From: Actinomycetota bacterium
GTDB taxonomy: Bacteria; Actinomycetota; Acidimicrobiia; Acidimicrobiales; Ilumatobacteraceae
Assembly (NCBI GenBank): GCA_016213625.1
Contig: JACQZZ010000116.1
Span: forward strand, 62,001-126,000
Length of the DNA stretch: 64,000 nt
Direction: 5' to 3'
How positions within the stretch are numbered: position 1 is the first letter of the stretch; each line of letters opens with the position of its first letter. Both the position numbers and the translations under genes were made by a program. The notes under the pieces were generated by a model, which worked only from the letters and a program-made list of their open reading frames with translations, searched no databases and was not told where the DNA came from. Below are positions 26,074 to 40,947 of this stretch, piece after piece.

Positions 26074-27258
26074 ATGAACGGGCAGCCACGCCCCGGGCGA
26101 CCGCACCAAGCGACGGGCGCCTGGATGCCGGGCGATCCTCCCGGCTCGCGCCGCTTCTTCGAGATCCCACGCCCGCTCGCGCTCGACGGCGGCGCCACCC
26201 TCAGCGGAGTGGTCGTGGCCTACGAGACCTGGGGCACCCTCAAAGCGGACCGCTCGAACGCGGTGCTGCTGTGCCACGCGTGGACCGGCGACAGCCACGC
26301 CACCGGGCCGGCCGAGCACGGCCATCCGGCACCTGGCTGGTGGGAAGGCGCCGTGGGGCCGGGCCTGGCCATCGACACCCGGCGCTGGTTCGTGGTGTGT
26401 GCGAACGTGCTCGGCGGTTGCCAGGGCTCCACCGGACCCGCCTCGCCGCATCCGGTCGATGGTCGTCCCTATGGCAGCCGGTTCCCGGTCATCACCATTC
26501 GCGACATGGTGCGCGCCCAGGCCCGTCTGGCCGACCATCTCGGCGTGCAGCGGTGGCACGCGGTGGTCGGCGGCTCGATGGGCGGCATGCAGGTGCTGGA
26601 GTGGGCCGTGATGTTCCCGCAACGCGTCGGTGGCATCGTGCCCATCGCCACGTGCACACAGGCCAGCGCACAGCAGATCGCGTGGGGTGCCATCGGCCGG
26701 CGGGCCATCCGCATGGACCCGAAGTGGCGCGGCGGCGACTACTACGACGCCGATCCCGACGACGGTCCGTGGGAGGGCCTGGCCACCGCGCGCATGGTGG
26801 CCCAGGTGACGTTCCGCAGCGACAACGTGTTCACCGATCGTTTCGGACGTGAACTCGCCGACGGGGCCACGCTGCACGACGGTCTCGACCTGTGGCAGCG
26901 GTTCGAGGTGGAGCGCTATCTCGACTATCACGGCGACAAGCTCGTGCGGCGGTTCGACACGAACAGCTACCTCATCATCGGCAAGGCGATGGACCTGCAC
27001 GACATCGGGCGCGGCAGGTCGGGCCTCGGTGCCGCCATCTCTCGCGTCACCTCACCCGCGCTGGTGATGGGCATCTCCAGCGACATCCTGTATCCCACGT
27101 ACCAGCAGCGCCAGATCCACGAGCTCCTGCTGTCGGAGGGCACGAAGAGCGACTACGTGGAGATCGACTCACCCCACGGGCACGACGCGTTCCTGATCAA
27201 TCTGGATCAGGTTGCTCCGCCGATTCAGCAGTTCCTCGAATCGCTCGCTCCCGCCTGA
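26074..27258 (+). CDS. metX: Homoserine O-acetyltransferase (MetX)
   Basis: MetX acetylates homoserine with acetyl-CoA for methionine synthesis. The 394-residue alpha/beta hydrolase-fold protein has the opening FEIPRPLALDGGATLSG, VLLCHAWTGDSHA (oxyanion region), the nucleophile elbow VVGGSMGGMQVLEW, and the late Asp and His of the triad (GISSDILYPTYQQ and SPHGHDAFL). ATG 26074 has an AAGGAGGA five bases upstream. Control is by the SAM riboswitch in the leader. No metY (O-acetylhomoserine sulfhydrylase) lies next to it. The 3' end overlaps a convergent gene by 62 bp. Confidence 0.95.
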   Translation: MNGQPRPGRPHQATGAWMPGDPPGSRRFFEIPRPLALDGGATLSGVVVAYETWGTLKADRSNAVLLCHAWTGDSHATGPAEHGHPAPGWWEGAVGPGLAIDTRRWFVVCANVLGGCQGSTGPASPHPVDGRPYGSRFPVITIRDMVRAQARLADHLGVQRWHAVVGGSMGGMQVLEWAVMFPQRVGGIVPIATCTQASAQQIAWGAIGRRAIRMDPKWRGGDYYDADPDDGPWEGLATARMVAQVTFRSDNVFTDRFGRELADGATLHDGLDLWQRFEVERYLDYHGDKLVRRFDTNSYLIIGKAMDLHDIGRGRSGLGAAISRVTSPALVMGISSDILYPTYQQRQIHELLLSEGTKSDYVEIDSPHGHDAFLINLDQVAPPIQQFLESLAPA

Positions 27259-27655
27259 CCTCGCGGTCGGCGAGGATCTGCTCGAGGACCGGGATGACCT
27301 TGCTCTTGGCCGGCACACGGATGGCCAACTGGTTCGGGAGGGCGTGCCCGTCGAGCAACTCCTGTGCCACGTAGACCTGCAGTCGTTGCGGGGGACTGGG
27401 CGACTTGCCCACCAACGCCCACAGCGACCCGTTGCGGCGCAGGCCGCGCTTCTGGCTGCAGTGGAGCACACCGTCGTCGAGCACCATCACTCGCGTCTCG
27501 CGAGCGCGGCCGGCGGGTTGACCCTCGACGATCTCCTGCGCGGTGCACAAGAAGCGCTTGCCGTCCTTGGACGCATAGTGCGGCTCGATCTTGTACGAGA
27601 CCCACCACAGGCCCGCCATGACGGCGAAGAACAGCACGATCCAGAGGGCATCCAC
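27197..27655 (-). CDS. Membrane-anchored protein of unknown function
   Basis: From GTG 27655 the protein has 152 residues: one N-terminal membrane helix (LWIVLFFAVMAGLWWVSYKI) and then a soluble basic/hydrophobic part with CTAQEI, RETRVMVLDDGVLHCSQKRGLRR and VAQELLDGHALPNQLAIRVP. The frame stays open to a GTG at 27727, which would add 24 basic residues; I prefer the start next to the helix but cannot exclude the longer one. The end is 62 bp antisense to metX. I do not recognise a family. Confidence 0.6.
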   Translation of the reverse strand: MDALWIVLFFAVMAGLWWVSYKIEPHYASKDGKRFLCTAQEIVEGQPAGRARETRVMVLDDGVLHCSQKRGLRRNGSLWALVGKSPSPPQRLQVYVAQELLDGHALPNQLAIRVPAKSKVIPVLEQILADREVRRERAIRGTAESAEQPDPD

Positions 27656-27735
27656 CGGTACAGCTTTGCCGATCCGGCGAGGCACCGCACGTCGACGCGT
27701 GTGGTGAGGGGTGGTCGCGTGCGACACTGTGGGCC

Positions 27736-28428
27736 GTGAACGCGGTGGACGTGGAGTCGAAGATGGTGCGTGTGCCGACGGTGGTGCTGGGCGGGATCCT
27801 TGCCGAGGGCACCTTCGAAGACCCTCAGAACGCGCGCATCATCTACCTCGCCGTCGCCGGCCTGCTGCTGCTGGCCATCGTGCTCGGCGTCGGCACCTGG
27901 TACTGGTGGCGCACCAGCAAGGTGGAACACCCTGCGCTAGGCCCGCTGGAGATGATGGGCACGCGCACCTGGCGCAAGGGCGACTTCAACTCCCGTGCGC
28001 GGCGTCTGGAGGATTCCCGGCCGGCGAACGCCATCCACGAGGCCGAGCCGGTCGACGACCGCGACGAACTCGACCTCGACGCACTCGGCAAGCTGGAGCC
28101 GGCACAGTTCGACGACTTCTCCGACCTGCTCCCCGCGGCCGCAGCTGCCGCACCGGTGGCGCTCGCCACCGTCGACGCACCTGACGATGCGCCGGCGGTC
28201 GAGGCCGTGTCCGTCGAGGCCGTGTCCGTCGAGCCCGTGTCCGAGGAGCCCGTGTCCGAGGAGCCGGTGGTCGCGCCGGCCAAGCAGGGTGTCATCGTCA
28301 TCGACACCGCGCCATCCTCCGCACCGGCGCAGCAGCTCACCTTCGATGAACCGGCCGCCGAGCCCGCCGCCGACGACGACGATCCCGATCACTTCGATCC
28401 GCTGTTGCGGCTCAACGTCAGCGAATAG
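27736..28428 (+). CDS. Single-pass membrane protein with acidic repeat tail
   Basis: The 230-residue protein has one membrane helix near residues 36-58 (IIYLAVAGLLLLAIVLGVGTWYWW) and a long Asp/Glu/Ala-rich C-terminal region, probably disordered. The tail contains a fourfold pentapeptide repeat of the AVSVE/PVSEE type coded by 15-bp tandem repeats at 28204-28263. It ends HFDPLLRLNVSE. The start is GTG 27736; no better start is evident. No recognised domain. It is divergent from the membrane protein above. Confidence 0.75.
   Translation: MNAVDVESKMVRVPTVVLGGILAEGTFEDPQNARIIYLAVAGLLLLAIVLGVGTWYWWRTSKVEHPALGPLEMMGTRTWRKGDFNSRARRLEDSRPANAIHEAEPVDDRDELDLDALGKLEPAQFDDFSDLLPAAAAAAPVALATVDAPDDAPAVEAVSVEAVSVEPVSEEPVSEEPVVAPAKQGVIVIDTAPSSAPAQQLTFDEPAAEPAADDDDPDHFDPLLRLNVSE
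28204..28263 (+). repeat. Four 15-bp tandem repeats inside a CDS
   Basis: The unit (G/C)CCGTGTCCG(TC/AG)GAG is repeated four times in frame; copies 1-2 are identical and copies 3-4 are identical. It encodes AVSVE, AVSVE, PVSEE, PVSEE, so the number of units could vary between strains. Confidence 0.85.
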
Positions 28429-28453
28429 CTGGGCATGCCGCGGCGCCTGCCGG

Positions 28454-28459
28454 TACGGT
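28454..28459 (+). promoter_or_regulatory. -10 box before a 76-residue gene
   Basis: TACGGT, seven bases, ATG 28467; a leaderless start is likely. Confidence 0.45.
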
Positions 28460-28466
28460 GGGGCGC

Positions 28467-28697
28467 ATGGCTGATTCCCTCGACGTCGACGCGATGCTCG
28501 CCCGTTTCCGTGAGCGGGCCCACGCCGTGAAGCAGCGGCCGCTGCCGCCCGTGGCGGGCGAGGAACGGGCACAGTTCGTGCGCCAGGCCCAGGTGGACTT
28601 CCGCGACTACGCCATCATCGGCGACGCCGCGGGCACCATCGAGGACGGCGTCCTCGTGCTGCGGGTGGACCTCCGGCCGCCCGAGCAGCGTGGCTGA
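28467..28697 (+). CDS. Small soluble protein of unknown function
   Basis: A 76-residue protein: an N-terminal helix (DVDAMLARFRERAHAVKQR), a middle helix (AQFVRQAQVDFRDYAIIGDA) and a final beta-like stretch GVLVLRVDLRPP. High third-position G+C and the leaderless -10 box support a real gene. I know no function. It lies 39 bp after the acidic-tail membrane protein and just before the tRNA promoter. GTG 28458 is an alternative start. Confidence 0.7.
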   Translation: MADSLDVDAMLARFRERAHAVKQRPLPPVAGEERAQFVRQAQVDFRDYAIIGDAAGTIEDGVLVLRVDLRPPEQRG

Positions 28698-28820: not shown

Positions 28821-28825
28821 TTTGG

Positions 28826-28856
28826 AAGGCCCCTGGCGGAGTCGCCAGGGGCCTTT
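28826..28856 (+). terminator. Strong intrinsic terminator after tRNA-Gly
   Basis: A perfect 13-bp stem, AAGGCCCCTGGCG and its complement around GAGT, followed by T, begins 5 bp after the tRNA CCA. Confidence 0.85.
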
Positions 28857-29178
28857 CCGCGGGCACGGGCTTCATCGCTCGACCACTGGAGTGGCGTCGG
28901 AGTGGATGCGGCGCTTCATGAAAGGACCTAGTCCTCTGGTCGTGTCGGCTGGCCGCTCCGCTAACTGAAGTGAGGCGGGCGCACACCGTTCGGCTGTGGG
29001 TTGAGGAGCCGATCCGGCGGACGAGCGCCGAGAACACCGCGTGTCACGAGCACGGAGTCGGTTCAGCAGCACGATGAGGAGGGTCATGGCACCGAGCACT
29101 CGGTTCTGGACCTCCCCCCAGGCGTGGGTGACAGCCTCGCCATCGCCTGGGTGCCGACCGTGCGGCGAGGCGGAACCG
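28857..29178. other. Spacer between tRNA-Gly and the PAS-GGDEF-EAL gene
   Basis: About 320 bp without a supported gene. The plus frame is open from GTG 29041 into the downstream gene, but its composition (many Arg, Trp and Pro) is unlike that protein. I see no clear promoter or hairpin. Confidence 0.5.
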
Positions 29179-32043
29179 ATGGTCGGCGATGAAGTCATGA
29201 CCGTGGCCCTCGACGCGGACGCCGAGACGCCCGGCGACGGCCACCGCTTCAGGGCGATGTTCCACGATCACGGCGCAGTCATGCTGCTCATCGACCCGGA
29301 AACCGGGCAGATCGTGGATGCGAATCCGTCAGCCGTGGCGTTCTACGGCTACAGCATGAGTGAACTGAGATCGATGTCGATCACCGAGATCAACATGATG
29401 CCGGCCGCTGAGGTCGTGGCCATGATGGCTCGGGCCGAGGCGGGCGACCTCACCCACTTCGTCTTCCCGCATCGCCTGGCCAGCGGTGAGATCCGCAGGG
29501 TCGACGTCCACTCCTCGCCCATCCATGATGGTCGACTCCTGCTCTTCTCCATCGTCGTCGACATCGAGGATCGAGTCCGGGCGGAGGAAGAGCTCGCCCG
29601 GGTGTCCGCGTATTCTCGGAGTCTCATCGAAGCGAGCCTCGATCCGCTCGTCACCATCAGCGCAGTCGGCGTCATCACCGACGTGAACGTGGCCACCGAA
29701 ACCGTCACCGGCGTCCCTCGGCGGGAACTCATCGGCAGTGACTTCGCCACCTACTTCACGGATCCGGCCAGCGCCCGCGCCGGCTACGTCCACGCGTTCA
29801 ACGAGGGGTCGGTCAAGAATTACCCGCTTGCGATCCGACACGTTGACGGAACTGTCACTGACGTGCTGTACAACGCCACCGTCTACCGCGACAGCAACGG
29901 CGACATCGCAGGGGTGTTCGCCGCCGCGCGCGACATCACCGAGCGAACGCGCGTCGAGATGGAGCTGGCCGAGCAGCGTGATCGACTGGCCGCGAGTGAA
30001 GGTCTCTTGCGTGCAGTGCTCGACTCAACCGGGGATGCGGTGATCCGGTTCGGCCGCGATGGGCGTATCGACTTCGTGAACCATCAGGTCGAGCAGAACT
30101 CTGGTGTCCCATGCGAGCACTGGATCGGCAAGACGTTCGCGGAGATGGGGTTCGGCGACTTCGCAACGTCGTGGGACGCGTACAACCGGCAGGTGTTCGA
30201 TGGCGGTGAGGCGCTCACGTTCGAGTTCGAGATCGACAACGCGGAGGGCCACCGCTGGTACGAGACGAAGGTCACCCCCGAGATGGATGCCGACGGGTGC
30301 GTCGGCCATGTCATCGAGTCGAGCCGTGACATCACCGACCGAGTGCAAGCGGAGAGCGAGTTGCGTTCCAGCCGAGCGCAGTTGGAGCAGGCGCAACGCA
30401 TCGCGCACTTCGGCAGTTGGACCTTGGACAACGCCACCAATCACGTCTCCTGGTCCGAGGAGCTGTTCCTCATGCAGGGTCTCGACCCCGCGAGTCCCGC
30501 GCCGGACTACACCGAGCACAGCCGGCTGTTCACCGCAGCGAGCTGGCACGAGTTGAGCACGGCATTGTCGAACGCCCAGACGACCGGCACCCCGTACGAA
30601 CTCGAACTGGAGATGGTCCGACCCGACGGCTCCCACGGGTGGATGCTGGCGCGGGGTGAACCGGTGTGGGATGAAGCGGGGGCGATCATCGGCCTTCAGG
30701 GCGTGGCTCTCGACGTGACCGATCGCAAGGTCGCGAGTGAACGCTTGCGCACACAGGCCACGCACGACCCGCTGACAGGTCTGGCGAACCGACTTGCGCT
30801 CATCGACGAACTCACCCTGGCGATCAACGCCCGCTCTCGATCCGGCCGGCCACTTGCAGTGCTCATGATGGACCTCGACCGCTTCAAGGATGTCAACGAC
30901 ACGCTGGGTCACTCCGCCGGTGATCGCCTCCTAATCGCTGTTGCCGACCGGCTTCAAGCAGTCGCGAGGGCTGGCGACCTGGTGGCTCGACTCGGCGGCG
31001 ACGAGTTCATCATCGTCATGCGCGACCTGAAGGAGCCGGCGGAGGCGGTGCGCGCGGCCGCTCGACTGGTGGAAGAGTTCCGGACTCCATTTGCCACCAG
31101 CGACCGGGAGCTGTTCGCCACCGCGAGCGTGGGTGTTGCGCTCGCCACGGATGGGGCCGAGGCAGGTGATCTTCTGCGGGAAGCCGACACCGCGCTCTAC
31201 GCTGCGAAGGCCGATGGTCGGGACCGGGTGGCCATGTTCAACGAGGATCTGCGAACGACCGTCACCGCCCGACTCGCGGTCGAGGCCGGCCTTCGCCAAG
31301 CGTTGCTTCGCGGGGAGCTCGAGGTCTGGTACCAACCAGAGGTGGACCTCAAATCCGGGTCAGTGGTCGCGTTCGAGGCACTGCTGCGCTGGCGGCGACC
31401 CGACGGTGACGTGTGGACCGCTGATCGGTTCGTCGAGATCGCTGAGGGCACGGGGCTGATCCTTGACATCGGCGACTGGATGCTGAACCAGGCGTGCATC
31501 CAGGGTGCGGCATGGGCGATGCTCGGCGCGAGTCACCCGGTGATGCTCCGGGTCAACATTTCCGCCGTCCAGCTGGCCGAGGTGGGATTGCTCGATGCGA
31601 TCGACGGCGCGCTCGCCGCCAGTGGCCTCGAACCCGAGCTCTTGTGCGTGGAGATCACGGAGACCGCGCTGCTTCGCCGGACCGCGGTCGTGACGTCGAA
31701 TCTTCAGGGGATCCACGACCGTGGAATCTCCCTCGCGATCGACGACTTCGGTACGGGGTACGCGTCGCTCACCTATCTGGACCAGCACCCGATCGACGTG
31801 ATCAAGATCGACCGCAGCTTCGTCGCCCACGCGACTGACGATGGCCCTGGACTCGTCGCGGGGATCATCGCGCTCGCCAGGCCGCTCGGTATCCAGATCG
31901 TCGCCGAGGGCGTCGAGCATGCCGACCAAGTGGCACGACTGTGTCAGATGGGCTGCGGCTCCGCGCAGGGTTGGTTCTACTCCAGGGCGGTGTGCCCGGA
32001 TGAGGCCACCAGATTGCTGAGCCACCGCTATCCGGGTTTCTGA
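29179..32043 (+). CDS. Multi-PAS diguanylate cyclase / phosphodiesterase (PAS-GGDEF-EAL)
   Basis: A soluble c-di-GMP signalling protein of 954 residues. Four PAS units in series fill roughly residues 20-530 (each ending in a DITERT/DITDRV/DVTDRK-type strand). A GGDEF domain at about 530-690 has DPLTGLANR and the intact active site RLGGDEFIIV, and an EAL domain at about 700-945 has FEALLRW, IDDFGTGYASLTYL and AEGVE. Both halves therefore look catalytic, and direction may be set by the PAS inputs. No membrane helix. ATG 29179 follows GAGG by eight bases. Confidence 0.93.
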   Translation: MVGDEVMTVALDADAETPGDGHRFRAMFHDHGAVMLLIDPETGQIVDANPSAVAFYGYSMSELRSMSITEINMMPAAEVVAMMARAEAGDLTHFVFPHRLASGEIRRVDVHSSPIHDGRLLLFSIVVDIEDRVRAEEELARVSAYSRSLIEASLDPLVTISAVGVITDVNVATETVTGVPRRELIGSDFATYFTDPASARAGYVHAFNEGSVKNYPLAIRHVDGTVTDVLYNATVYRDSNGDIAGVFAAARDITERTRVEMELAEQRDRLAASEGLLRAVLDSTGDAVIRFGRDGRIDFVNHQVEQNSGVPCEHWIGKTFAEMGFGDFATSWDAYNRQVFDGGEALTFEFEIDNAEGHRWYETKVTPEMDADGCVGHVIESSRDITDRVQAESELRSSRAQLEQAQRIAHFGSWTLDNATNHVSWSEELFLMQGLDPASPAPDYTEHSRLFTAASWHELSTALSNAQTTGTPYELELEMVRPDGSHGWMLARGEPVWDEAGAIIGLQGVALDVTDRKVASERLRTQATHDPLTGLANRLALIDELTLAINARSRSGRPLAVLMMDLDRFKDVNDTLGHSAGDRLLIAVADRLQAVARAGDLVARLGGDEFIIVMRDLKEPAEAVRAAARLVEEFRTPFATSDRELFATASVGVALATDGAEAGDLLREADTALYAAKADGRDRVAMFNEDLRTTVTARLAVEAGLRQALLRGELEVWYQPEVDLKSGSVVAFEALLRWRRPDGDVWTADRFVEIAEGTGLILDIGDWMLNQACIQGAAWAMLGASHPVMLRVNISAVQLAEVGLLDAIDGALAASGLEPELLCVEITETALLRRTAVVTSNLQGIHDRGISLAIDDFGTGYASLTYLDQHPIDVIKIDRSFVAHATDDGPGLVAGIIALARPLGIQIVAEGVEHADQVARLCQMGCGSAQGWFYSRAVCPDEATRLLSHRYPGF

Positions 32044-32109
32044 CGCCTCTCGAGAGCCGCCCAGCGCGGCATCCGCGGCCGCACCGCCGAGGTCGAGATC
32101 CCCGACAGT

Positions 32110-32135
32110 GTTTGGAACGCGCGGCTCCCGGGAAG
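32110..32135 (+). promoter_or_regulatory. SigB/F-type promoter candidate (weaker)
   Basis: GTTT, 16 bases, GGGAAG, 48 bp before ATG 32183. The spacer matches the five better sites nearby; the -10 part has A for T at its fourth position. Confidence 0.45.
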
Positions 32136-32182
32136 AACCTGGTATCGAGCGTCGGATCCTCCGGCCGCGAGGGAAGAGTCCG

Positions 32183-32737
32183 ATGACGATCGCCGACGGT
32201 CCGCAGCACGAACGCACCACCATGAGCGAGGCACCGGTCGCCGGCACCGCAGCCGAGGTCGGTGTGCCGGTGGCACACGTGCGCACGTCGTCGAGCGCGA
32301 GGTTCGCGCCCGATGCGTTGATCGCCGCCGGTGTCGGTCTGGTGCTCATCGTGATCGGCCTGATCGTGATCACCCGTGGCGGGTTCAGCGGTTCGATGTC
32401 GGACCCGGTGGTCGAGGTGCTCGGCTTCCGCCACACGACCACGCTCGGCCTCATCGAGATCGCGATCGGCGCGTTGCTCCTCATCGCAGGGGCGAGCCGC
32501 TCTCGCGCGCTGGCGACGTTCGGCGGCCTCGTGCTCGTCGTCGCCGGCTTCGTCGGCGCGGTCCAGACCGAGTCGTTCGCCACGAACCTGGCGCTCGAGT
32601 CCTCGGTGGGCTGGTGGGCCGTCGTGGCGGGTGCCGTCGTCGTGATCGCATCCCTCGTCCTGCCCCGATTCGCCAGGCGGGCGACCACCATCGAGCAGGT
32701 GGGCCCTTCTTCTGTCGACGGTCGCACGTCGACCTGA
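32183..32737 (+). CDS. Four-helix membrane protein of the sigma-factor island
   Basis: A 184-residue membrane protein. A polar N-terminal 50 residues are followed by about four helices (ALIAAGVGLVLIVIGLIVI, IEIAIGALLLIAGA, ATFGGLVLVVAGFVGA, WWAVVAGAVVVIASLVL) and a short polar tail. No family is recognised. ATG 32183 has a GAGGGAAG-type site upstream; ATG 32222 is an alternative. It sits upstream of the anti-sigma gene on the same strand and has its own candidate stress promoter, so it is probably a regulon member. Confidence 0.75.
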   Translation: MTIADGPQHERTTMSEAPVAGTAAEVGVPVAHVRTSSSARFAPDALIAAGVGLVLIVIGLIVITRGGFSGSMSDPVVEVLGFRHTTTLGLIEIAIGALLLIAGASRSRALATFGGLVLVVAGFVGAVQTESFATNLALESSVGWWAVVAGAVVVIASLVLPRFARRATTIEQVGPSSVDGRTST

Positions 32738-32768
32738 CGGCTCGCGATCGCGGGCTGGTATCGGTCAC

Positions 32769-32794
32769 GTTTGGTCGGCAGCGCGATCGGGTAC
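32769..32794 (+). promoter_or_regulatory. SigB/F-type promoter of the anti-sigma/sigma operon
   Basis: GTTT, exactly 16 bases, GGGTAC. Known SigB/SigF consensus in actinobacteria is GTTT-N15-17-GGGTA(T/C). It lies 74 bp upstream of the ATG and predicts autoregulation. Confidence 0.8.
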
Positions 32795-32868
32795 GAACTC
32801 GGTGCGACCGTGTGCACCGAGTCTGCAACGATCTGCATCGAGTGGCGTACCTCAGGAGGCCTGCCGAC

Positions 32869-33276
32869 ATGACCGAGATGGGCACCACACCACCGTCGCC
32901 GTCGACCGCGGTGAGCGGGCCGGTGGCACTTCGAATCCCCGCCGAGCCGGCGTTGTCGCGTATCGCTCGCCTCGCGGCGAGCGGCCTCGCGTCGCTCACC
33001 GGGTTCACCATCGACGACATCGAGGACATCAAGATCGCGGTCAGCGAGGTGACCATCGCCCTCGTGGAGCACGGTGCCGGGCAACCGGTGGAGCTCGAGT
33101 TCGACGCCCGAGACGCGTTCGTGGTGCGTGCCCGTACGGCGGTCGAGGAATTCGATCCCGAGCACCCCGACCTCGAGTTGTGCCGCACGGTGCTGGGTGA
33201 GGTGTGCAAGGAGCACGGAATGAGCCACGTCGATGGTCACGCCGAGATCTGGGCCTCGGTCGTCCGAACTGGCTGA
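32869..33276 (+). CDS. RsbW-like anti-sigma factor (HATPase fold), degenerate
   Basis: A 135-residue protein with the anti-sigma kinase layout: LSRIARLAASGLASLTGFTIDDIEDIKIAVSE is the helix before the N-box in RsbW/SpoIIAB proteins. The N-box itself reads SEVTIALVEHG; the Asn expected four residues after the Glu is Ala, and no DxGxGF or GxG lid is visible afterwards. It may bind its sigma factor without being an active kinase, or have an altered ATP site. AGGAGG at 32854-32859 lies nine bases before ATG 32869. The sigma gene starts 7 bp after its stop. Confidence 0.82.
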   Translation: MTEMGTTPPSPSTAVSGPVALRIPAEPALSRIARLAASGLASLTGFTIDDIEDIKIAVSEVTIALVEHGAGQPVELEFDARDAFVVRARTAVEEFDPEHPDLELCRTVLGEVCKEHGMSHVDGHAEIWASVVRTG

Positions 33277-33283
33277 CCGGACG

Positions 33284-34018
33284 GTGAACCCACGGCCGCC
33301 TCCGGACGACGAGTGGCTCGCGCTGGCGCTCGAGCGATTCGCGGTCGACCGCAGTGACGCGCTGCGCGTCGAGATCGCGGGCCGCGTCGACTGGCTCGCG
33401 CGCCGCTGCGCGAGCCGGTTCATGGGGCGAGGCGAGCCCTTCGACGACCTGCTGCAGGTGGCGCGGATCGGGCTGCTGAAGGCGATCGATCGCTTCGACG
33501 CCGTCCACGGGGTGCCGTTCGGCGCGTTCGCCACCCCGACCATCGTCGGCGAGCTGCGCCGTCACTTCCGCGACCACACATGGGGCGTGCACGTGTCGCG
33601 CACGGCGAAGGATCGTCGCGGTGGTGTGAACGCGGCTGTGGAGGAACTGACCAAACAGCTGGGTCGATCACCGCGTGTCCCCGAACTCGCCCGCCACCTG
33701 GGGCTGCCGGAGGACACTGTGATCGAGGTGATGGAGGCGAGCCTCGCCTACCGTCCCGACTCGTTCGACCCGGACAATCCCGGCCACGAGCGCCCGTTCG
33801 CCGATGACGTGCCGGACTCGCTGGACCGAGCGCAGGTGATCGAACTGCTCACCCTGCTGCCGACGCGTGAACGCACCATCCTGTACCTCCGGTTCTACGA
33901 GGAGCTCAGCCAGGCCGACATCGCCGAGCGGCTCGGCACCAGCCAGGTGCACGTGGGACGGCTCATCGCTGCCAGCCTCGCCCAGCTCAGGAGGGTCGCC
34001 GGCGACGACCGCGGATGA
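33284..34018 (+). CDS. SigB/SigF/WhiG-type RNA polymerase sigma factor
   Basis: A group-3 sigma-70 factor of 244 residues. Region 2 is DWLARRCASRFMGRG...DDLLQVARIGLLKAIDRFD with the -10 recognition helix FGAFATPTIVGELRRHFRDHTW; region 3 follows (LTKQLGRSPRVPELARHLGLP); region 4 is LPTRERTILYLRFYEELSQ then the HTH ADIAERLGTSQVHVGRLI. This is the stress/sporulation-type factor of actinobacteria. The start GTG 33284 is my choice; ATG 33233 would overlap the anti-sigma gene. The six GTTT-N16-GGGTAC-like sites nearby are its likely targets. Confidence 0.9.
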   Translation: MNPRPPPDDEWLALALERFAVDRSDALRVEIAGRVDWLARRCASRFMGRGEPFDDLLQVARIGLLKAIDRFDAVHGVPFGAFATPTIVGELRRHFRDHTWGVHVSRTAKDRRGGVNAAVEELTKQLGRSPRVPELARHLGLPEDTVIEVMEASLAYRPDSFDPDNPGHERPFADDVPDSLDRAQVIELLTLLPTRERTILYLRFYEELSQADIAERLGTSQVHVGRLIAASLAQLRRVAGDDRG

Positions 34019-34042
34019 GCTCTGACATTCGGGCTTGACGAT

Positions 34043-34068
34043 GTTTGAACAGTCGTCGTCGGGGGTAG
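34043..34068 (+). promoter_or_regulatory. SigB/F-type promoter pointing at a hairpin, candidate sRNA promoter
   Basis: GTTT, 16 bases, GGGTAG, beginning 25 bp after the sigma gene stop. No plus-strand gene follows before the hairpin at 34113-34142. Confidence 0.6.
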
Positions 34069-34074
34069 AGCCTG

Positions 34075-34146
34075 TGTGCGCCCGGTCTCCCGCCCTGGTG
34101 CGCTGGCTGGAGAGCGGTAGGTCGGTCGACCGGTCTACCGCTTTCG
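34075..34146 (+). ncRNA. Candidate small RNA in the sigma island
   Basis: From the expected start about seven bases after the GGGTAG box, a transcript would run about 40 bases to a 15-bp hairpin followed by CTTTCGCC, giving roughly 70 nt. The segment has no convincing ORF and lies between the sigma gene and the convergent STAS gene. Its ends are inferred from promoter and hairpin positions only; the alternative is read-through antisense to the STAS gene. Confidence 0.35.
34113..34142. terminator. 30-nt palindrome between sigma and STAS genes
   Basis: AGCGGTAG ... CTACCGCT with an inner TCGGTCGACCG core pairs over 15 bp, two of them G-T. It sits between convergent genes and can terminate both strands; a short TTT follows on the plus strand. 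Confidence 0.65.
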
Positions 34147-34168
34147 CCATGTGGTGCCGAACGTGGCG

Positions 34169-34540
34169 TCAGGCGACGTCGAACAACTCGCTCCGGCCGC
34201 ACAGTTCGAGCATTCGGAGCACGCACAGCGACGGGGCACGCAGCGTGAGCGCCCACTCGGTTCTGCGGCTCTCGAGCACTGCATCCGTGAGCGCTTGGAC
34301 GGTGGAGATGTCGATGAACGTGACACCTCGCAGGTCCACCACGACGAAGGCCGGTCGTCCCCGCTCGGCGAGCATGGCGGCGCGGAGTGCTTCGACCACG
34401 GCGACGTCCTGGTCGCCGGTGAGCCAGATCACGGTGGTGTCGCCCTCGGCGGTGATGCGCGGGGCCTGAACGGTGTAAAGGTCGAAGGACGACCCGATGA
34501 GCGATGCGACCACTTGCAGACCTCCCTGGTTCGTCGACAT
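34169..34540 (-). CDS. STAS-domain anti-sigma factor antagonist
   Basis: A 123-residue STAS protein, the expected partner of the RsbW-like protein. The core strand-helix FVVVDLRGVTFIDISTVQAL matches the antagonist signature; the Ser in IDIST aligns with the phosphorylated Ser of SpoIIAA/RsbV, while the usual following Gly is Thr. The N-terminal 20 residues are extra. ATG 34540 was chosen; the frame upstream to 34774 is out of character (Arg/Pro-rich). It is convergent to the sigma gene and has no visible stress promoter of its own. Confidence 0.85.
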   Translation of the reverse strand: MSTNQGGLQVVASLIGSSFDLYTVQAPRITAEGDTTVIWLTGDQDVAVVEALRAAMLAERGRPAFVVVDLRGVTFIDISTVQALTDAVLESRRTEWALTLRAPSLCVLRMLELCGRSELFDVA

Positions 34541-34638
34541 GTCGTCAACGCGTGACCGGGGTCTGGGGTACGCACTGCGCTTGTTGACCTGACCATACAC
34601 CGATTCGGGGCAATGGCAACCTCGCGCGGCCGTGCAGG

Positions 34639-34664
34639 GTTTGGGCGAGACGGATCCTGGGTAG
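34639..34664 (+). promoter_or_regulatory. SigB/F-type promoter of a small gene
   Basis: GTTT, 16 bases, GGGTAG, 49 bp before ATG 34713. Confidence 0.7.
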
Positions 34665-34712
34665 GGAGGTCGTGCACGGCCCCACCCGGGGCCGGCAAGG
34701 ACTGTGCCCGAC

Positions 34713-34910
34713 ATGACGCGCCCGCTGGACCTCGTCCGCCGCACCACCCGCCCGATCTGGGCCGCCCTGCTCATCGGCGCCGCGTGGCAGAACCGACGTG
34801 AGGTGATCCGCCGCTATCGGCTGGCACGTGAAGCGGTCACGGCGCGTCGCACACCCGCGCCGCCACCCGACGTGATCATCGAGGTGAGCGCTCACAAGGT
34901 GACGCCCTGA
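34713..34910 (+). CDS. Small basic protein of the sigma island
   Basis: A 65-residue protein, MTRPLDLVRRTTRPIW at the start, a short hydrophobic patch (AALLIGAAW), an Arg-rich helix (NRREVIRRYRLAREAVTARR) and an end VIIEVSAHKVTP. Third positions are strongly G/C, an AAGGA lies 11 bases upstream, and a good stress promoter precedes it, which together make it a likely gene. GTG 34704 is an alternative start. No family recognised. Confidence 0.6.
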   Translation: MTRPLDLVRRTTRPIWAALLIGAAWQNRREVIRRYRLAREAVTARRTPAPPPDVIIEVSAHKVTP

Positions 34911-34960
34911 CCGTCGTACGCCGATGATCCGGTCGTGCCGATCAATGCCGGCGTCGACCG

Positions 34961-35875
34961 TCACCTCACCGAACGATGGTCCGAGCGGCGGGCTGCGAAC
35001 GTGACGACGGCGCCGACGATGATGGCGATGGCTCCGATCTCGAGCAGCTCCACAGCCCTCGAGCCCACGGACGGGATCGACGAGGCGGGTGTGTTCGCAC
35101 CTGTTCCGGTGGTGGTCGCGCTGCCCCCGCCGGTCGTCGCCAGTGTCGTCGTGGGCGAGGTCGCTGACTGACACGACGGCCTGGTGAAGGTGTTGGAGTC
35201 GAGCGTCACGGCACCGTTACGGGCGAGCAGCCGGCCTTCGATGGACGCGTTGGTCTGCGCCGAGATCGACGTGAGGGCGAGCACCGTTCCCACGAAGGTT
35301 GCGCTGGTGCCGATCGTCGCCGAGCTGCCGACCTGCCAGAAGACGTTGCACGAGCCCGCGCCGTTGACGAGCGAGACGCGACTCGAGCTGTTGGCGACCA
35401 GCGTGCTGGAGGCCTGGAACACGAACACCGCGTTCGGGTCGCCCTGGGCATCGAGCGTCAGCGTGCCCGACAACGCCAGGGCGCCGCCGGTGTAGACACC
35501 CGAGGTCAAGGTCATGCCGGCGAGATCGGCGCTGATCGCTCCTGTGCTGGGTCGGCCTGCGGCATCATCGAACGCGGTGACCACCGACGCCTGGGCCGCC
35601 AGTGCGTTCGCGTCGGCAGCGTGGACGACTCCACCGGTCACCTGGCCCGGGGGGAAGCCAGTGACCGCGGAGCCCGGGCTCACGCCGAGGTCGCCGTTCA
35701 CCGTGGACGGTCCGGTGTTCGTCACCGTCGTGCCCGCCACCACGGCGTAGCTCGCAGCGTCGCCGAGGCCCACCGGAGAGGTCGCCGCGGACGCGTCACC
35801 ACCACCGACGACCAGCAGCACTCCGACAGCGGTACCGAGCGCGAAACGCGCGATGCGAGGGATGGAAGCGGTCAT
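34961..35875 (-). CDS. DUF3494 (ice-binding-like) surface protein
   Basis: A 304-residue exported protein. The signal peptide (IARFALGTAVGVLLVVGGGDASA) is followed by the DUF3494 fold: SPVGLGDAASYAVVAGTTVTNTG, STVNGDLGVSPG, ADLAGMTLTSGVYTGGALALSGTLTLD, FVFQASSTL and NVFWQVGSSATIGTSATFVGTVLA, the hallmarks of the ice-binding/adhesin-like beta-solenoid. A Thr/Gly-rich linker leads to a C-terminal membrane helix (AIAIIVGAVVTFAA) and a basic tail, so it is probably surface-anchored; the region before the helix (IPSVGS) is not a clear LPxTG. It may be ice-related or a general adhesin. A perfect stress promoter lies upstream. Confidence 0.88.
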   Translation of the reverse strand: MTASIPRIARFALGTAVGVLLVVGGGDASAATSPVGLGDAASYAVVAGTTVTNTGPSTVNGDLGVSPGSAVTGFPPGQVTGGVVHAADANALAAQASVVTAFDDAAGRPSTGAISADLAGMTLTSGVYTGGALALSGTLTLDAQGDPNAVFVFQASSTLVANSSSRVSLVNGAGSCNVFWQVGSSATIGTSATFVGTVLALTSISAQTNASIEGRLLARNGAVTLDSNTFTRPSCQSATSPTTTLATTGGGSATTTGTGANTPASSIPSVGSRAVELLEIGAIAIIVGAVVTFAARRSDHRSVR

Positions 35876-35950
35876 GGCGACCAGCCTTTCCAAGGGATCA
35901 ACCGTCGAGACGACGGCACACAGCAACAAGGGCTGCCTGATGGTGTCCCT

Positions 35951-35976
35951 GTACCCGATGCGACCCTTTCTCAAAC
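35951..35976 (-). promoter_or_regulatory. SigB/F-type promoter of the DUF3494 gene
   Basis: On the minus strand GTTT (35976-35973), 16 bases, GGGTAC (35956-35951), about 75 bp before ATG 35875. Confidence 0.8.
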
Positions 35977-35987
35977 AGGCGGGGTGA

Positions 35988-36440
35988 TCAGATCCACTCC
36001 CTGTCGGCCACGGTCGACTCGGTGAGGCGGTCGAGCAGGCCCTCGGGGGCTTCCTGCACGGCGATGAGTCCGTCGTCGGCGCGAGCGGTGGCGCGGATCA
36101 ACTCGTCGAGCTTCAATTGCGTGGCCGAGGTCTGACGCGCCTGGGTGTGCTGAATGACGAACACCATCACGAACGTCACCCCGCCGGTGACGGCGAAGAG
36201 GGTGGTGGCCCACCAGTCGGGAAAGCCGGTGGCCACACCGACCGTGACCCACACGGCGATCACGGCGATCGCGGTGAACCCGGACAATGGGTGCGAGCCG
36301 GTCTCGTCGAGCCGATGGAGCAACCGACTCGTCCACCGGCGCTCCTTCCAACTCGAGGCGTGCGGGGTGTTCAGCGGGAGACGGGGGCGGCGATCACGAA
36401 ACCGACGGTCGGTGCCGCTGGCGCGCTCGCCGTCGCTCAC
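35988..36440 (-). CDS. Low-affinity iron permease family protein (Fet4-like, PF04120)
   Basis: A 150-residue membrane protein. After a basic N-terminal 45 residues come two helices, GFTAIAVIAVWVTVGVATG and TTLFAVTGGVTFVMVFVIQH, then TQARQTSATQLKLDELIRA, which is the family hallmark, and an acidic end. Bacterial members are half the size of yeast Fet4 and their transport role is not well proven. GTG 36440 overlaps the DUF6131 stop as GTGA, so the two are co-translated from the stress promoter upstream. Confidence 0.82.
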   Translation of the reverse strand: MSDGERASGTDRRFRDRRPRLPLNTPHASSWKERRWTSRLLHRLDETGSHPLSGFTAIAVIAVWVTVGVATGFPDWWATTLFAVTGGVTFVMVFVIQHTQARQTSATQLKLDELIRATARADDGLIAVQEAPEGLLDRLTESTVADREWI

Positions 36441-36592
36441 CAGTAGTGAGCTCGGCCGCCGACCTGACGACCTGCGCGACCGAGGATCAGGAGCACGACA
36501 CCGACGATCAGCAGGATCACCCCGAGCGTCCACAGGATGGGGATGGCGGCGATGGCGCCGATGAGGAGGAGTACGAGTCCGAGGGTGATCAT
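36437..36592 (-). CDS. DUF6131 small membrane protein
   Basis: A 51-residue protein, almost all hydrophobic: MITLGLVLLLIGAIAAIPIL, WTLGVILLIVGVVLLILG, then GRAGRQVGGRAHYW. The two-helix plan with the GG-RxHYW end is what I know as DUF6131 in actinobacteria; function unknown. The ATG is only about ten bases after the GGGTAC box, so the mRNA is nearly leaderless. Its stop overlaps the iron-permease-like gene (GTGA). Confidence 0.82.
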   Translation of the reverse strand: MITLGLVLLLIGAIAAIPILWTLGVILLIVGVVLLILGRAGRQVGGRAHYW

Positions 36593-36601
36593 GTCGTGCT
36601 G

Positions 36602-36627
36602 GTACCCCGAACGAGCTGGTCTCAAAC
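36602..36627 (-). promoter_or_regulatory. SigB/F-type promoter of the DUF6131-iron permease operon
   Basis: On the minus strand GTTT (36627-36624), 16 bases, GGGTAC (36607-36602). The spacer begins GAGA, as at the DUF3494 promoter. Confidence 0.8.
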
Positions 36628-36698
36628 CCGACGCCGGGATCCGAGCGGCCATGTGGATGCCGGAGCGCCTCTGGTACGCTCGCCGTCGATCAGACCCG

Positions 36699-39314
36699 AT
36701 GCAACGTTCGAGTGACCGCAGCTTGGCGCTGGCGACCTGGGATGCCGACGACGACGTCGTCCCAGCCCTCGCGGCAGCGCCCGTCATCGCCACCAAACTG
36801 GTGCCGCCGCACCTTCCGTCGGTGCTCGTCGATCGCCCGGCTCGCCGTCACCTCCTGGAGGGCACGGCCCAGGTGGTCGCCGTGGTGGCACCCGCCGGCT
36901 ACGGCAAGACCGTGCTGGTGCGCCAGTGGGTGGACACGCTCGACGGTGTCGCCGTCGCCTGGTACTCGCTCGACGCGCTCGACGCCAACCCGTTGTGCTT
37001 CTGGCGACACCTGGTGGCCGCGCTCGACGAGGCAGTGCACCTCGGCCACGAGCCCGACCGTGTGCTCACCGAGCGCGGACCCGACACCGCGTTCTTGCAC
37101 CTCCTGGTCCACGCGCTCGCCAGCACCGGCCGCGATCTGGTACTCGTGCTCGACGACCTGCACCTGTTGCGCGACCGGGCCACGCTCGACCAGCTGGCGT
37201 TGCTGGTCGACCGCGCCGGCCCCGGGTTCCGGCTGGTGTGCACCGCACGCTCGACCCCGCCGCTGCCGCTGGCTCGCTGGCGACTCCAGGGCCGGGCGGC
37301 CGAGCTGGGCGTCGACGACCTGCGGTTCGACGAGGACTCCACGGATTCGCTGCTGCGTGGGTATCAGTGCCCGGCCATGGCCGATCGCGACCTGACGGAA
37401 CTGGTCGGACGGTCGGAAGGGTGGGTGGCGGGCATCCAGCTCGCCGCGCTCGCCCGGCCCGGCGATGTGCTGCGAGTGCTCGACGACCTGCCCGCCGACA
37501 ACGCCGGGGTGGCCGACTATCTGGTCAGCGAGGTCATCGATGCGCTGCCGGCCGATCAACGCGAGGTGGCACTCGCGGTGTCCGTGGTCGACGAGTTCGA
37601 TGCCTCGCTCGCGGCGGGACTGGCGGGCCGAGCCGACGCTGGTGCGGTCATCCGTGCGCTCGACGACGGCAACGTGTTCCTGGTGCGAACCGGGGCCGAG
37701 AGCTACCGCTTCCACCACCTGTTCCGCGACCTCCTGCGTGCGCAGGTGCGCGACACCGATCCGCAGGAGTGGCATCGTCTGCACCGCGAGGCGGCCCGGT
37801 TGCTCGCCGCCCGGGGTCAGACCGATGCAGCCTTCGGTCATCTCGTGCTCGTCGACGACATGGACGGTGCCTTCGACCTGGTGGTGCGCCCGGGCCTGGC
37901 ATTGTCCGACCAGGGGCATGGTCGCCAGTTCCGTCGCTGGTTGGAGATGCTGCCGGTGAACCTCGAGGTGCACGACGTCGACCTGTTGCTCGACCTCGCG
38001 TTCGCCAACTTCACCGCCGGTCGGCTCGACGAGGCCGAGGCCATGCTCGACACGGTCGCGCCACGGTGCCAGCCCGACGACCGGAGAGTCGCGCTGCGGC
38101 GTCTGGCCGTCGCGGTCGCCCGCGGCGACGTGTCACGAATGGACGGAGCATTGGCGCTCAGCGGCGCGACCGTCGGCCCGGTGCTCGGAGGGCCGTTCGA
38201 GTACCGCTTCGACAGCGTGGCTGCCCGAGCGTGGATTCTGCGCGGCGACCTCGACGAGGCGGCGGCGGCGTTGGACCGCGCAGCGGCCAATGCCGACGAG
38301 CACGCGCGACGGGTCACCGTTCCCGCGCTTCGGGCACGGTTGCATGTCCTGGCCGGCAATGTGGTGGAGGCCACCCGGTTGGCACAGCACGCCAGCGACG
38401 AGGCCGAGGCGGTGGGAGTCCGCCGCAATCCGGCCGTGTTGGAGATCGCGATCGCCAGCACGGCAGCCGCCATCGCCGGCGGCGACACCGCTGCGGCAGC
38501 GGTGCGCATGGAGGAGCTGCTCGACGTGGTCGACGCGGTGGACTACCCCTACTCCCACGCCAACGCCGCGGCACTCGGCATCGAGTTGCATGCCCAGCAG
38601 GAGGGGTGGTCGGCGACGGCCGGGCAGTTCGACGAGCTCTGCGAGCAAGCGGGATTCGAACGGCCCGCGCCCATGCAGCGACTGCTCGACCCGCTGTTGG
38701 TCCGAGCGCTCGTGGCCGCCGGTCGCATCGGCGAGGCGGCCGAGGTGGCGACCGCGATGCTCCCCGGCCCGGATCGCACCATCGCCGAGGCATCCGTGCA
38801 ACTCGCGTCGCGGCAGTACGCGCAGGTGCTGTCGGCGCTGCAACGCACCGACGGATGGACGTCACGCGCCACGGTGGAGGCACTCGTGCTCTGCGCGATG
38901 GCGGCCACAGGAGACGACGCCGACCGATTCCTGCGGGCGGCCATCGACCTGGCGATGCCACTCGGCCTGGTGTCACCGTTCCTCCAGCGCGGCGACGATC
39001 TCGATCGCATCCTCCGTCGTCTGCCGGCGGAGCACCGCTCGTTCGTCGACCGATGGTCGCCCGCAACGGCCGCTCCGAGCCAGCCGATCCCGGGCATCGT
39101 GGAACCGCTCACCCCGCGAGAACGGGAACTCCTGGCCCTCCTGCCGACGCATCTCTCCAACGCCGCCATCGGCGAGCGGCTGTACGTCTCGGTGAACACG
39201 GTCAAGACCAATCTGCGATCCGTGTACCGCAAGCTCGGTACTGCCTCGAGGGCCGAGACCGTCGCGATGGCCCGACGCGTGGGTCTGTTGCCGCCTGGTG
39301 ACACAACAGTTTGA
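36699..39314 (+). CDS. LuxR-family ATP-dependent transcriptional regulator (MalT-like)
   Basis: An 871-residue STAND-type regulator. The Walker A motif VVAPAGYGKTVLVRQW lies near residue 65, the Walker B-like LVLVLDDLHLL at about 145, then a winged-helix-like segment (SEGWVAGIQLAALA), a long helical TPR-like middle (about residues 380-780) and a C-terminal LuxR HTH: LTPRERELLALLPTHLSN then IGERLYVSVNTVKTNLRSVYRKLG. It senses a small molecule or protein; the ligand is unknown. ATG 36699 is used; a TACGCT box lies about 18 bases before it. Divergent from DUF6131, it may belong to the stress island. Confidence 0.9.
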   Translation: MQRSSDRSLALATWDADDDVVPALAAAPVIATKLVPPHLPSVLVDRPARRHLLEGTAQVVAVVAPAGYGKTVLVRQWVDTLDGVAVAWYSLDALDANPLCFWRHLVAALDEAVHLGHEPDRVLTERGPDTAFLHLLVHALASTGRDLVLVLDDLHLLRDRATLDQLALLVDRAGPGFRLVCTARSTPPLPLARWRLQGRAAELGVDDLRFDEDSTDSLLRGYQCPAMADRDLTELVGRSEGWVAGIQLAALARPGDVLRVLDDLPADNAGVADYLVSEVIDALPADQREVALAVSVVDEFDASLAAGLAGRADAGAVIRALDDGNVFLVRTGAESYRFHHLFRDLLRAQVRDTDPQEWHRLHREAARLLAARGQTDAAFGHLVLVDDMDGAFDLVVRPGLALSDQGHGRQFRRWLEMLPVNLEVHDVDLLLDLAFANFTAGRLDEAEAMLDTVAPRCQPDDRRVALRRLAVAVARGDVSRMDGALALSGATVGPVLGGPFEYRFDSVAARAWILRGDLDEAAAALDRAAANADEHARRVTVPALRARLHVLAGNVVEATRLAQHASDEAEAVGVRRNPAVLEIAIASTAAAIAGGDTAAAAVRMEELLDVVDAVDYPYSHANAAALGIELHAQQEGWSATAGQFDELCEQAGFERPAPMQRLLDPLLVRALVAAGRIGEAAEVATAMLPGPDRTIAEASVQLASRQYAQVLSALQRTDGWTSRATVEALVLCAMAATGDDADRFLRAAIDLAMPLGLVSPFLQRGDDLDRILRRLPAEHRSFVDRWSPATAAPSQPIPGIVEPLTPRERELLALLPTHLSNAAIGERLYVSVNTVKTNLRSVYRKLGTASRAETVAMARRVGLLPPGDTTV

Positions 39315-39315
39315 C

Positions 39316-39336
39316 CTTCACCCGCTTCGGGTGAAG
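39316..39336. terminator. Hairpin after the LuxR-family gene
   Basis: CTTCACCCG-CTT-CGGGTGAAG, a perfect 9-bp stem just after the stop codon, with no T-run behind it. Confidence 0.5.
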
Positions 39337-39369
39337 CATGGTGTGTCCGTCACTTGAGAGCCTGGAGCC

Positions 39370-40947
39370 ATGAGCCGTCGACCCAACATCCTCTTGATCA
39401 CCACCGACGAGGAACGGGCTGCCATCCCGCATCCCGCCGGGTTCGAGCTGCCGTCCCGCGAACGGTTGGCCGCCGCCGGCACCACGTTCAGCAACTACTA
39501 CGCCGCGTCCACGATGTGCAGTTCGTCGCGGTCGGTCATCTACACCGGCCAGCACCTGCCGCACACCGCGATCTACGACAACGACAACATGCCCTACATC
39601 CGGCCCCTCGACCCGGCGATCGGCACCATCGGCACGATGTTGCGCGCCGCCGGCTACTACACCACCTACCAGGGCAAGTGGCATCTGTCGAACGCGTACG
39701 TGGACCCGGCGAACCCGGTGTCGACCAAGGATGCGCTGGAGCCGTACGGCTTCTCCGAGTGGAACGACTGGGGCGACATCGACGGCGGCGCCTGGGCCGG
39801 GTTGCAGGTGGACCCGGTGATCGCCGGTCAGGCCGCGGGCTGGTTGCGCAACCGTGCACCGGTGGTGGTCGCCGAGCAGCCGTGGTTCATGGCGGTCAAC
39901 TTCGTGAACCCGCACGACATCATGAGCTTCGACTACGGCAGCCGGTCGAAGGTGCAGTTGCCGCCCGGCCTCTCGCACGCCGTGGCCACCCGGCCGCCGG
40001 CACCCATTCCCGTCTACGCCCCGCAGTGGGACGTGTCGCTCCCGGCGAGCGCGCACGACGACCTGTCGGGCGCGGCGCCCGCGGTGCGCGAGTACGCCGA
40101 AGTGATGAACGTCTCCTTCGGTGAGGTGGTGGGGGAGGACCACTGGCTGGAGGGCATGAACTTCTACCTGAACTGCCTGCGCGACGTCGACCGCTCGATC
40201 GGCCTCGTGCTCGATGCTCTCGAGGCCTCTGGACAGGCCGACGACACGATCATCGTGTTCACTGCCGACCACGGCGACATGGTCGGCTCGCACGGCCTCC
40301 GCCAGAAGGGCAACCTCGTGTACGACGAGAACTTCCACGTGCCCTTCATCGTTCGGCACCCCGATGTGCAGGGAGGCGGGGTCAGCACGGCATTCGCCTC
40401 GGCCGTCGACCTCGCGCCCACGCTGCTGGCATTCGCCGGTGTCACCGCCGAACAGGTGGCCAACGAGCACTCGAACCTCAAGGGTCAGTCGCTGGCTCCT
40501 GCGCTGGAGGGACACGACGTGCGCGACGGCGTGCTCACCGCCGTCGAGTCCATCACCACGCTCGACGCCGGGTACTGGCGGCACTTCGGCGACGCCGACG
40601 TGATGGAGCAGTTGCAGTCGGGTCGCCTGCGTCCCGACCTGCACAAGCGGGGCTTCCTGCGCGGCTACACGGACCGTCGGTACTCGTTCGGCCGCTACTT
40701 CTCGCCCCTCGAGCCGAATCGCCCCACGGACCTCGACGGCCTGTTCGCGCGGAACGACGTCGTGCTCTACGACCGTGTCGAGGATCCGCACGAGCTGGTG
40801 AACCTGGCGGGTCAGCCCGAGCATCACGCGCTGGTGGCGGACTACTCCGCCAAGCTCGAAGCCCTCATCACTGCCGAAGTGGGCGACGATCTGCACGCAT
40901 GGGTCACCGAGCGTCCAGCGCTGATGGGACCGCCGTCAGGGCAGTGA
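39370..40947 (+). CDS. Sulfatase family protein
   Basis: A 525-residue alkaline-phosphatase-superfamily sulfatase. NILLITTDEERA has the metal Asp pair, and the signature is STMCSSSRSVIYTGQ, where Cys would be changed to formylglycine; the usual C-x-P-x-R has Ser in place of Pro. GKWHLSN and VFTADHGDMVGSHGL supply further metal and substrate residues. No signal peptide is seen, so it is likely cytoplasmic; a choline-sulfatase or aryl-sulfatase type substrate is possible. The maturase is not in the window. Ends overlap the convergent GNAT gene by 12 bp. Confidence 0.9.
   Translation: MSRRPNILLITTDEERAAIPHPAGFELPSRERLAAAGTTFSNYYAASTMCSSSRSVIYTGQHLPHTAIYDNDNMPYIRPLDPAIGTIGTMLRAAGYYTTYQGKWHLSNAYVDPANPVSTKDALEPYGFSEWNDWGDIDGGAWAGLQVDPVIAGQAAGWLRNRAPVVVAEQPWFMAVNFVNPHDIMSFDYGSRSKVQLPPGLSHAVATRPPAPIPVYAPQWDVSLPASAHDDLSGAAPAVREYAEVMNVSFGEVVGEDHWLEGMNFYLNCLRDVDRSIGLVLDALEASGQADDTIIVFTADHGDMVGSHGLRQKGNLVYDENFHVPFIVRHPDVQGGGVSTAFASAVDLAPTLLAFAGVTAEQVANEHSNLKGQSLAPALEGHDVRDGVLTAVESITTLDAGYWRHFGDADVMEQLQSGRLRPDLHKRGFLRGYTDRRYSFGRYFSPLEPNRPTDLDGLFARNDVVLYDRVEDPHELVNLAGQPEHHALVADYSAKLEALITAEVGDDLHAWVTERPALMGPPSGQ

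Follow-up and report, generated by a model that had tools for sequence, protein, structure and literature searches.

We analyzed a stretch of 64,000 nucleotides (the window) from the genome of an Actinomycetota bacterium of the Ilumatobacteraceae (Acidimicrobiales; assembly GCA_016213625.1, contig JACQZZ010000116.1, positions 62,001 to 126,000), in which an island at positions 32110 to 36627 contains a sigma factor gene, the gene of a putative anti-sigma factor and six promoter-like sites. Our results indicate that the island is very probably a SigF/SigB-type (group 3) partner-switching general stress module, with a predicted regulon that hardly extends beyond this island and a second one around a paralogous sigma gene, while it is dispersed over the genome in relatives.

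A preliminary description of the island had counted six GTTT-N16-GGGTA sites within 4.5 kb. Five of them are exact, while the sixth (32110+) has one mismatch in the -10 box:

32110..32134, plus strand: promoter-like site with a variant -10, GTTT-N16-GGGAA; the membrane-protein ATG follows 48 bp later, at 32183
32769..32793, plus strand: promoter-like site GTTT-N16-GGGTA of the anti-sigma/sigma operon, whose first gene starts 76 bp further on, at 32869
34043..34067, plus strand: promoter-like site GTTT-N16-GGGTA, 25 bp after the sigma stop codon, no protein gene downstream
34639..34663, plus strand: promoter-like site GTTT-N16-GGGTA of the gene for a 65-amino-acid protein, 50 bp before the ATG
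35952..35976, minus strand: promoter-like site GTTT-N16-GGGTA of the DUF3494 gene, 77 bp before the ATG; also on relatives' DUF3494 genes
36603..36627, minus strand: promoter-like site GTTT-N16-GGGTA of the DUF6131-permease operon, 11 bp from the start codon; also present on DUF6131 genes elsewhere in the class

The end of the -10 box is 11-77 bp from the start codon at five of the island sites. For these five the genes named earlier as lying downstream were the right ones, but no credible protein gene follows 34043+. With GTTT near -35, GGGTA near -10 and 16-17 bases between them, the putative promoter motif matches the published SigF/SigB consensus, which is GGWWT-N16-17-GGGTAY for mycobacterial SigF (PMC7693655) and GTTTAA-N12-14-GGG(A/T)A(A/T) for Bacillus subtilis SigB (PMC8346170). 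Since the -10 element of the SigB consensus is GGG(A/T)A (PMC8346170), the GGGAA of 32110+ lies within the published variation. In genome G014, the ortholog of the membrane protein gene that follows 32110+ has an exact GTTT-N16-GGGTA site (L044:14021).

The motif is rare in the window genome (4.51 Mb in 117 contigs, 92% complete), where it was counted by pattern searches with the reversed pattern as a control. Five exact N16 sites were found in the window (32769+, 34043+, 34639+, 35976- and 36627-), against an expectation of 0.09 from dinucleotide shuffles, and 0 of 100 shuffles reached five. The whole genome contains nine such sites compared with none in the control, or 12 compared with one when spacers of 15-17 bases are allowed. 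Five of the nine lie inside 4.5 kb, corresponding to 0.1% of the genome (binomial P ~1e-13), and two of the remaining four adjoin the paralogous sigma gene on contig C80. Site density in this genome-wide scan, which the preliminary description had proposed, thus peaks at the island and secondarily beside the paralogous gene, and the motif is accordingly not as frequent in the rest of the genome, the outcome that had been named as speaking against the idea. One-mismatch sites showed no excess genome-wide (92 additional sites compared with 173 in total in the reversed control), and degenerate sites were therefore left out of the counts, with the exception of GGGAA, two of whose five genomic sites adjoin the two sigma genes. 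The claim that the window holds a single other near-match was borne out by an N16 one-mismatch scan, in which 39309+ (GGGTG, over a hairpin) was the sole further site besides 32110+. This match, GTTTGACCTTCACCCGCTTCGGGTGAAGC, has its hairpin at the end of a LuxR-type gene and is more likely a terminator than a promoter.

The co-occurrence of motif and sigma factor was assessed in 61 genomes, namely the window genome and relatives, of which 28 contain a homologue of the sigma factor at E 1e-20. The ratio of pattern to reversed-control counts had a log2 median of +1.4 in genomes with the sigma gene and of -0.85 in those without it (Mann-Whitney p = 5e-7), and the difference was also found within the genus (six genomes with and nine without the sigma factor, p = 9e-4). 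These comparative tests support a promoter function of the sites. A pattern match that recurs in many genomes, GTTTACGGC(G/A)TGGACTACCAGGGTA (G014:C6:548-572 and others), is presumably part of the 16S rRNA in the region of the 806R primer; this false positive slightly raises the pattern counts in both groups of genomes.

The flanks were read for all sites of G004, G005, G007 and G014 and for many of G025 and G027. Among the 125 distinct sites in relatives, 109 are intergenic as judged with a simple gene caller and 101 have a spacer of 16, and 78 N16 sites lie at most 250 bp from a called start (median ~50). The downstream families recur and include CsbD (five times), DUF6131, DUF3494, RsbW, STAS and universal stress proteins (three times), as well as EncFtn-like ferritins (three times), Fe/Mn superoxide dismutase, GT20 (trehalose-phosphate synthase family), PAP2 and fasciclin, a gene set that by its families is a general-stress regulon. 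The island's own families of anti-sigma factor, sigma factor, membrane protein, 65-amino-acid protein, DUF6131 and DUF3494 are found under or next to sites elsewhere. Unlike the five CsbD genes of relatives, the CsbD gene of the window genome (L151) has no exact site upstream. Sites also cluster near the sigma gene in G014, G005, G007 and G032, the majority there being dispersed. The earlier idea of a compact, self-controlled stress module thus stands insofar as sites are enriched only where the sigma factor is present and the island gene families bear the same promoter elsewhere. However, the regulon of the relatives is spread over the genome, so that compactness is a property of this genome and not of the system.

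The genes of the putative switch and the remaining promoter-like element are the following:

32869..33276, plus strand: RsbW-like anti-sigma factor, GHKL ATPase family, degenerate ATP site (PF13581 29.4 bits, cut-off 27.4)
33233..34018, plus strand: SigB/SigF-type sigma factor with regions 2, 3 and 4; open frame from 33233, likelier start 33284
34169..34540, minus strand: STAS-domain anti-anti-sigma factor (PF13466, PF01740)
34592..34619, minus strand: sigma-70-like promoter TTGCCA-N16-TATGGT before the STAS gene, by consensus match alone

The sigma protein matched PF04542, PF04539 and PF04545 over their cut-offs and no region 1.1 model. Among solved structures it is nearest to 1l0o_C, a sigma chain paired with an anti-sigma F factor, and to 8x6g_H, and the Streptomyces genes found are about 45% identical to it. 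The anti-sigma gene lies directly upstream, overlapping the sigma gene by 44 nt (start 33233) or separated from it by a 7-nt gap (start 33284). Its product belongs to the fold family of the RsbW/SpoIIAB kinases but does not show their N, G1 and G2 boxes: the alignment to RsbW 6m36 extends up to the N-box, where Asn is replaced by Ala, and the G1/G2 part is unaligned. The degenerate ATP site is common to the anti-sigma orthologs of the whole clade. In Mycobacterium smegmatis, the SigF-binding anti-sigma factor RsbW1 has no kinase activity, while RsbW2, with its N, G1 and G2 motifs, acts as the kinase of the STAS protein RsfB (PMC7693655, PMC10950880). By analogy, the island protein resembles the kinase-less RsbW1 and not RsbW as a kinase. 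The STAS protein has a probable phosphorylatable serine, as its conserved Ser79 corresponds in the alignment to the second serine of the DSSG motif, which here reads DIST, and its gene is the only one of the island with a sigma-70-like promoter.

That the sigma factor reads these sites, how the partners switch and that the system is induced by stress we infer from the sequences. As in M. smegmatis, the RsbW-like anti-sigma factor would bind and hold the sigma factor, and another RsbW homologue whose N-box is preserved, for example the one beside the paralog (L040:13472-13876), would phosphorylate the STAS protein. Once dephosphorylated, the latter would release the sigma factor by partner switching, and the free sigma factor would take RNA polymerase to the GTTT-N16-GGGTA promoters of its own operon and of neighboring genes. 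Predicted targets are the membrane protein, the 65-amino-acid protein, the DUF3494 ice-binding-like protein and the DUF6131-iron permease pair. If the sigma factor reads its own promoter, site 32769 would provide positive feedback.

The predicted target genes of the island are:

32183..32737, plus strand: 184-amino-acid membrane protein without a Pfam family; its orthologs in G004, G007 and G014 lie next to DUF6131/CsbD/DUF3494 genes
34713..34910, plus strand: 65-amino-acid protein, no Pfam family; relatives with the same site in G024, G027, G022 and G032
34961..35875, minus strand: DUF3494/ice-binding-like protein of 304 amino acids (PF11999 201.5 bits, over cut-off)
35988..36440, minus strand: low-affinity iron permease-like membrane protein, second gene of the operon (PF04120 71 bits)
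36437..36592, minus strand: DUF6131 membrane protein of 51 amino acids, first gene of the operon (PF19626 33 bits)

A role of the island in stress, in cold or ice binding and in iron transport is suggested by these protein families. Like known DUF3494 ice-binding proteins, the window member has a full-length PF11999 domain, and its closest structures are solved antifreeze/ice-binding proteins (E 1e-51). It differs from them in its position under a general-stress-type sigma promoter, and ice binding is putative. In the literature searched, no title or abstract of the two papers naming both DUF3494 and a sigma factor makes this link. DUF3494 and DUF6131 genes were identified by profile, independently of the motif. 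Six of the 13 DUF3494 genes of the window genome and its relatives have an exact site upstream; they belong to the island itself, G005, G027, G014 (second gene of an operon), G040 and G003. The G003 gene is frameshifted: split over two frames, it retains the exact GTTT-N16-GGGTA site upstream (L148/L150, G003:C13:156520-157087), possibly as a relic of a lost regulon. For DUF6131, an exact site lies directly upstream of 5 of the 16 over-cut-off genes in a class-wide draw (the island's own, G032, G325, G295 and G205). The two families are also neighbors in distant members of the class, 0.7 kb apart in G370 (C16:15926-17357) and 1.9 kb apart in G134 (C15:1281-3932), and neither pair has an exact site upstream. 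As for iron, relatives have EncFtn-like ferritin genes and a NuoF-like gene under the promoter (L090, L098, L099, L113, L119), with an iron-permease homologue nearby; in G014 this homologue follows an EncFtn gene bearing a site. This suggests that iron handling belongs to the regulon.

The paralogous sigma gene on C80, likewise of this type, shares 54% identity with the island gene, and within 3 kb of the C80 gene there are two exact N16 sites and one N17 site. Its island (G000:C80:29393-33411, L040) consists of genes for a STAS protein, a kinase-less RsbW, the sigma factor, an RsbW homologue whose N-box is intact, and a transglycosylase-associated protein, with a fasciclin gene and one GGGAA site nearby in addition to the three exact N15-17 sites. 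The transglycosylase-associated gene follows the GGGAA site (C80:33387), and its G005 homologue has an exact one.

Several observations weigh against a self-controlled SigF/SigB-type module. The best NCBI model of the island sigma factor, TIGR02980 (SigB/SigF/SigG), scores 216 bits and thus remains below its curated cut-off of 234.35 bits; the G005 ortholog passes with 247 and the C80 paralog reaches 232.8. Nevertheless, all other sigma factors in the eleven genomes tested score at most 150, and TIGR02980 is by sequence the nearest subfamily by a wide margin. The island STAS gene is divergent, and an RsbW2-type kinase gene is absent from the island. None of 29 further DUF3494 loci from the wider class, outside the group, has an exact site upstream, so that a class-wide link between DUF3494 and the motif was rejected and the association is limited to the lineage. 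Moreover, an exact site precedes a DUF3494 gene in G003 and G040, two genomes in which the search yielded no sigma factor of this type. The C80 paralog also counts here, as with its own anti-sigma factor, STAS protein and three nearby sites it could read the island sites.

It is indeed conceivable, though unlikely, that the island sites are real SigF/SigB-type promoters read mainly by the C80 paralog, or by both sigma factors, in which case the island would not truly control itself. Cross-recognition is documented among the nine SigB homologues of Streptomyces coelicolor (PMC8346170). On the other hand, the single-copy relatives G005 and G014 have the same motif around their lone gene of this sigma type, and in the window genome the sites occur at both sigma loci. 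A fixed-spacing two-part motif could in principle also bind a repressor, but nothing specific points to another DNA-binding regulator, and we consider it very improbable that the GTTT/GGGTA pairs are binding sites of this kind and not promoters: the motif is the promoter consensus of exactly the encoded sigma class, tracks the presence of the sigma gene, is directional relative to the gene and is non-palindromic. An origin of the sites by chance from GC-rich composition has a negligible probability. Some exact sites of relatives are indeed due to chance or rRNA, GTTTACGGCGTGGACTACCAGGGTA resembling part of the 16S rRNA, but for the island this origin is refuted by the site counts in the shuffled window and in the reversed-pattern control.

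Site 34043 is followed by a candidate RNA:

34075..34148, plus strand: candidate short hairpin RNA or 5' end of a transcript antisense to the STAS gene (fold z-score -3.85)

The end of the convergent STAS gene lies 3' of the hairpin. The hairpin region matched no Rfam family, and no T-rich terminator was found after it. Equivalent sites 3' of the sigma gene in G014, G022, G024, G027 and G039 precede protein genes, namely DUF6131, an RsbW homologue, relatives of the 65-amino-acid protein or another gene, and a conserved small RNA at this position was rejected on these grounds. The odds are about even that 34043 is a relic or that a short or antisense RNA begins there. In the former case it would be the decayed promoter of the 65-amino-acid protein gene, parted from it by insertion of the STAS gene. 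This has roughly equal chances, given that in G027 and G024 the site directly precedes a relative of this protein, which in the window has its own site at 34639, while the 34043 site is still exact, with a strong hairpin within 80 bp, and a SigF-dependent antisense RNA, AscarD, is known in mycobacteria (PMC8820732).

The island lies in a variable region of the genome:

28745-28820: tRNA-Gly(GCC), left edge of the variable region
28821..40940, no strand: variable block that runs from tRNA-Gly(GCC) to a GNAT gene, includes the island and is missing from G013

The left neighbors (26074-28694) and the tRNA gene are kept in congeners. In G013, a congener without the sigma factor, the GNAT gene (window 40939) directly follows the tRNA. 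This genome lacks about 12 kb that encode, in the window, a PAS-GGDEF-EAL protein, a LuxR-type regulator and a sulfatase in addition to the island. G004 has about 3 kb in place of the block, with only a NuoF-like gene and a DUF6131 gene, each bearing a site, as well as an unassigned gene and the membrane protein gene, and other congeners differ again, which makes this a variable locus as judged by gene content. Despite the tRNA edge and the empty site in G013, an integrative element was rejected, as neither the interior nor the right end of the block contains a tRNA repeat of at least 12 bp, and none of the genes called there is an integrase. Foreign composition was likewise not upheld: the GC content of the island is 68.7% compared with 68.9% in the window, and its tetranucleotide deviation, at the 89th percentile, is not decisive. 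That module and targets come and go as a unit at tRNA-Gly, forming a portable stress cassette under its own control in which a sigma-dependent 34043 hairpin or antisense RNA feeds back on STAS, appears rather doubtful.

Among known systems, the mycobacterial SigF/RsbW1 (UsfX)/RsfB system of M. smegmatis (PMC7693655, PMC10950880) shares with the island an anti-sigma gene directly upstream of the sigma gene (in the island with a product that is putatively kinase-less as well), the GTTT-N16/17-GGGTA promoter, a separate N-box RsbW homologue (here L040:13472-13876) and an RsbW homologue gene under the promoter. In contrast to M. smegmatis, the island targets are local and include DUF3494 and DUF6131, the STAS gene is convergent 3' of the sigma gene, and the genome has two sigma paralogs, each with a site cluster. 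B. subtilis SigB has the same promoter consensus and autoregulation, and relatives show its STAS-RsbW-sigma operon order (L042, L043, L044, L047, L048) and CsbD-like targets. However, the N-box Asn is missing from the anti-sigma factor in this clade, so that the dual role of RsbW in binding and phosphorylation is probably split, and no stressosome genes were identified near the island. The SigB paralogs of S. coelicolor (PMC8346170) are similar in that there are several of them, with similar promoters, and in having an autoregulated anti-sigma/sigma operon (SigH-UshX), but the Streptomyces genes found are about 45% identical and the target genes are others. The kind of module is thus known; new are its compactness in this genome, the links to DUF3494 and DUF6131, and the presence or absence of the block at the tRNA locus.

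Taken together, our results extend SigF/SigB partner switching, with its promoter and target families, to a lineage of the Acidimicrobiales on which the literature searched contained no dedicated study, and they place DUF3494 ice-binding-like proteins and the uncharacterized DUF6131 under a general-stress-type promoter. The regulon is small enough to be read whole; together with the relatives, in which this promoter is dispersed, and with a congener that lacks the entire block, it may serve as a test case for the contraction or assembly of a sigma regulon.

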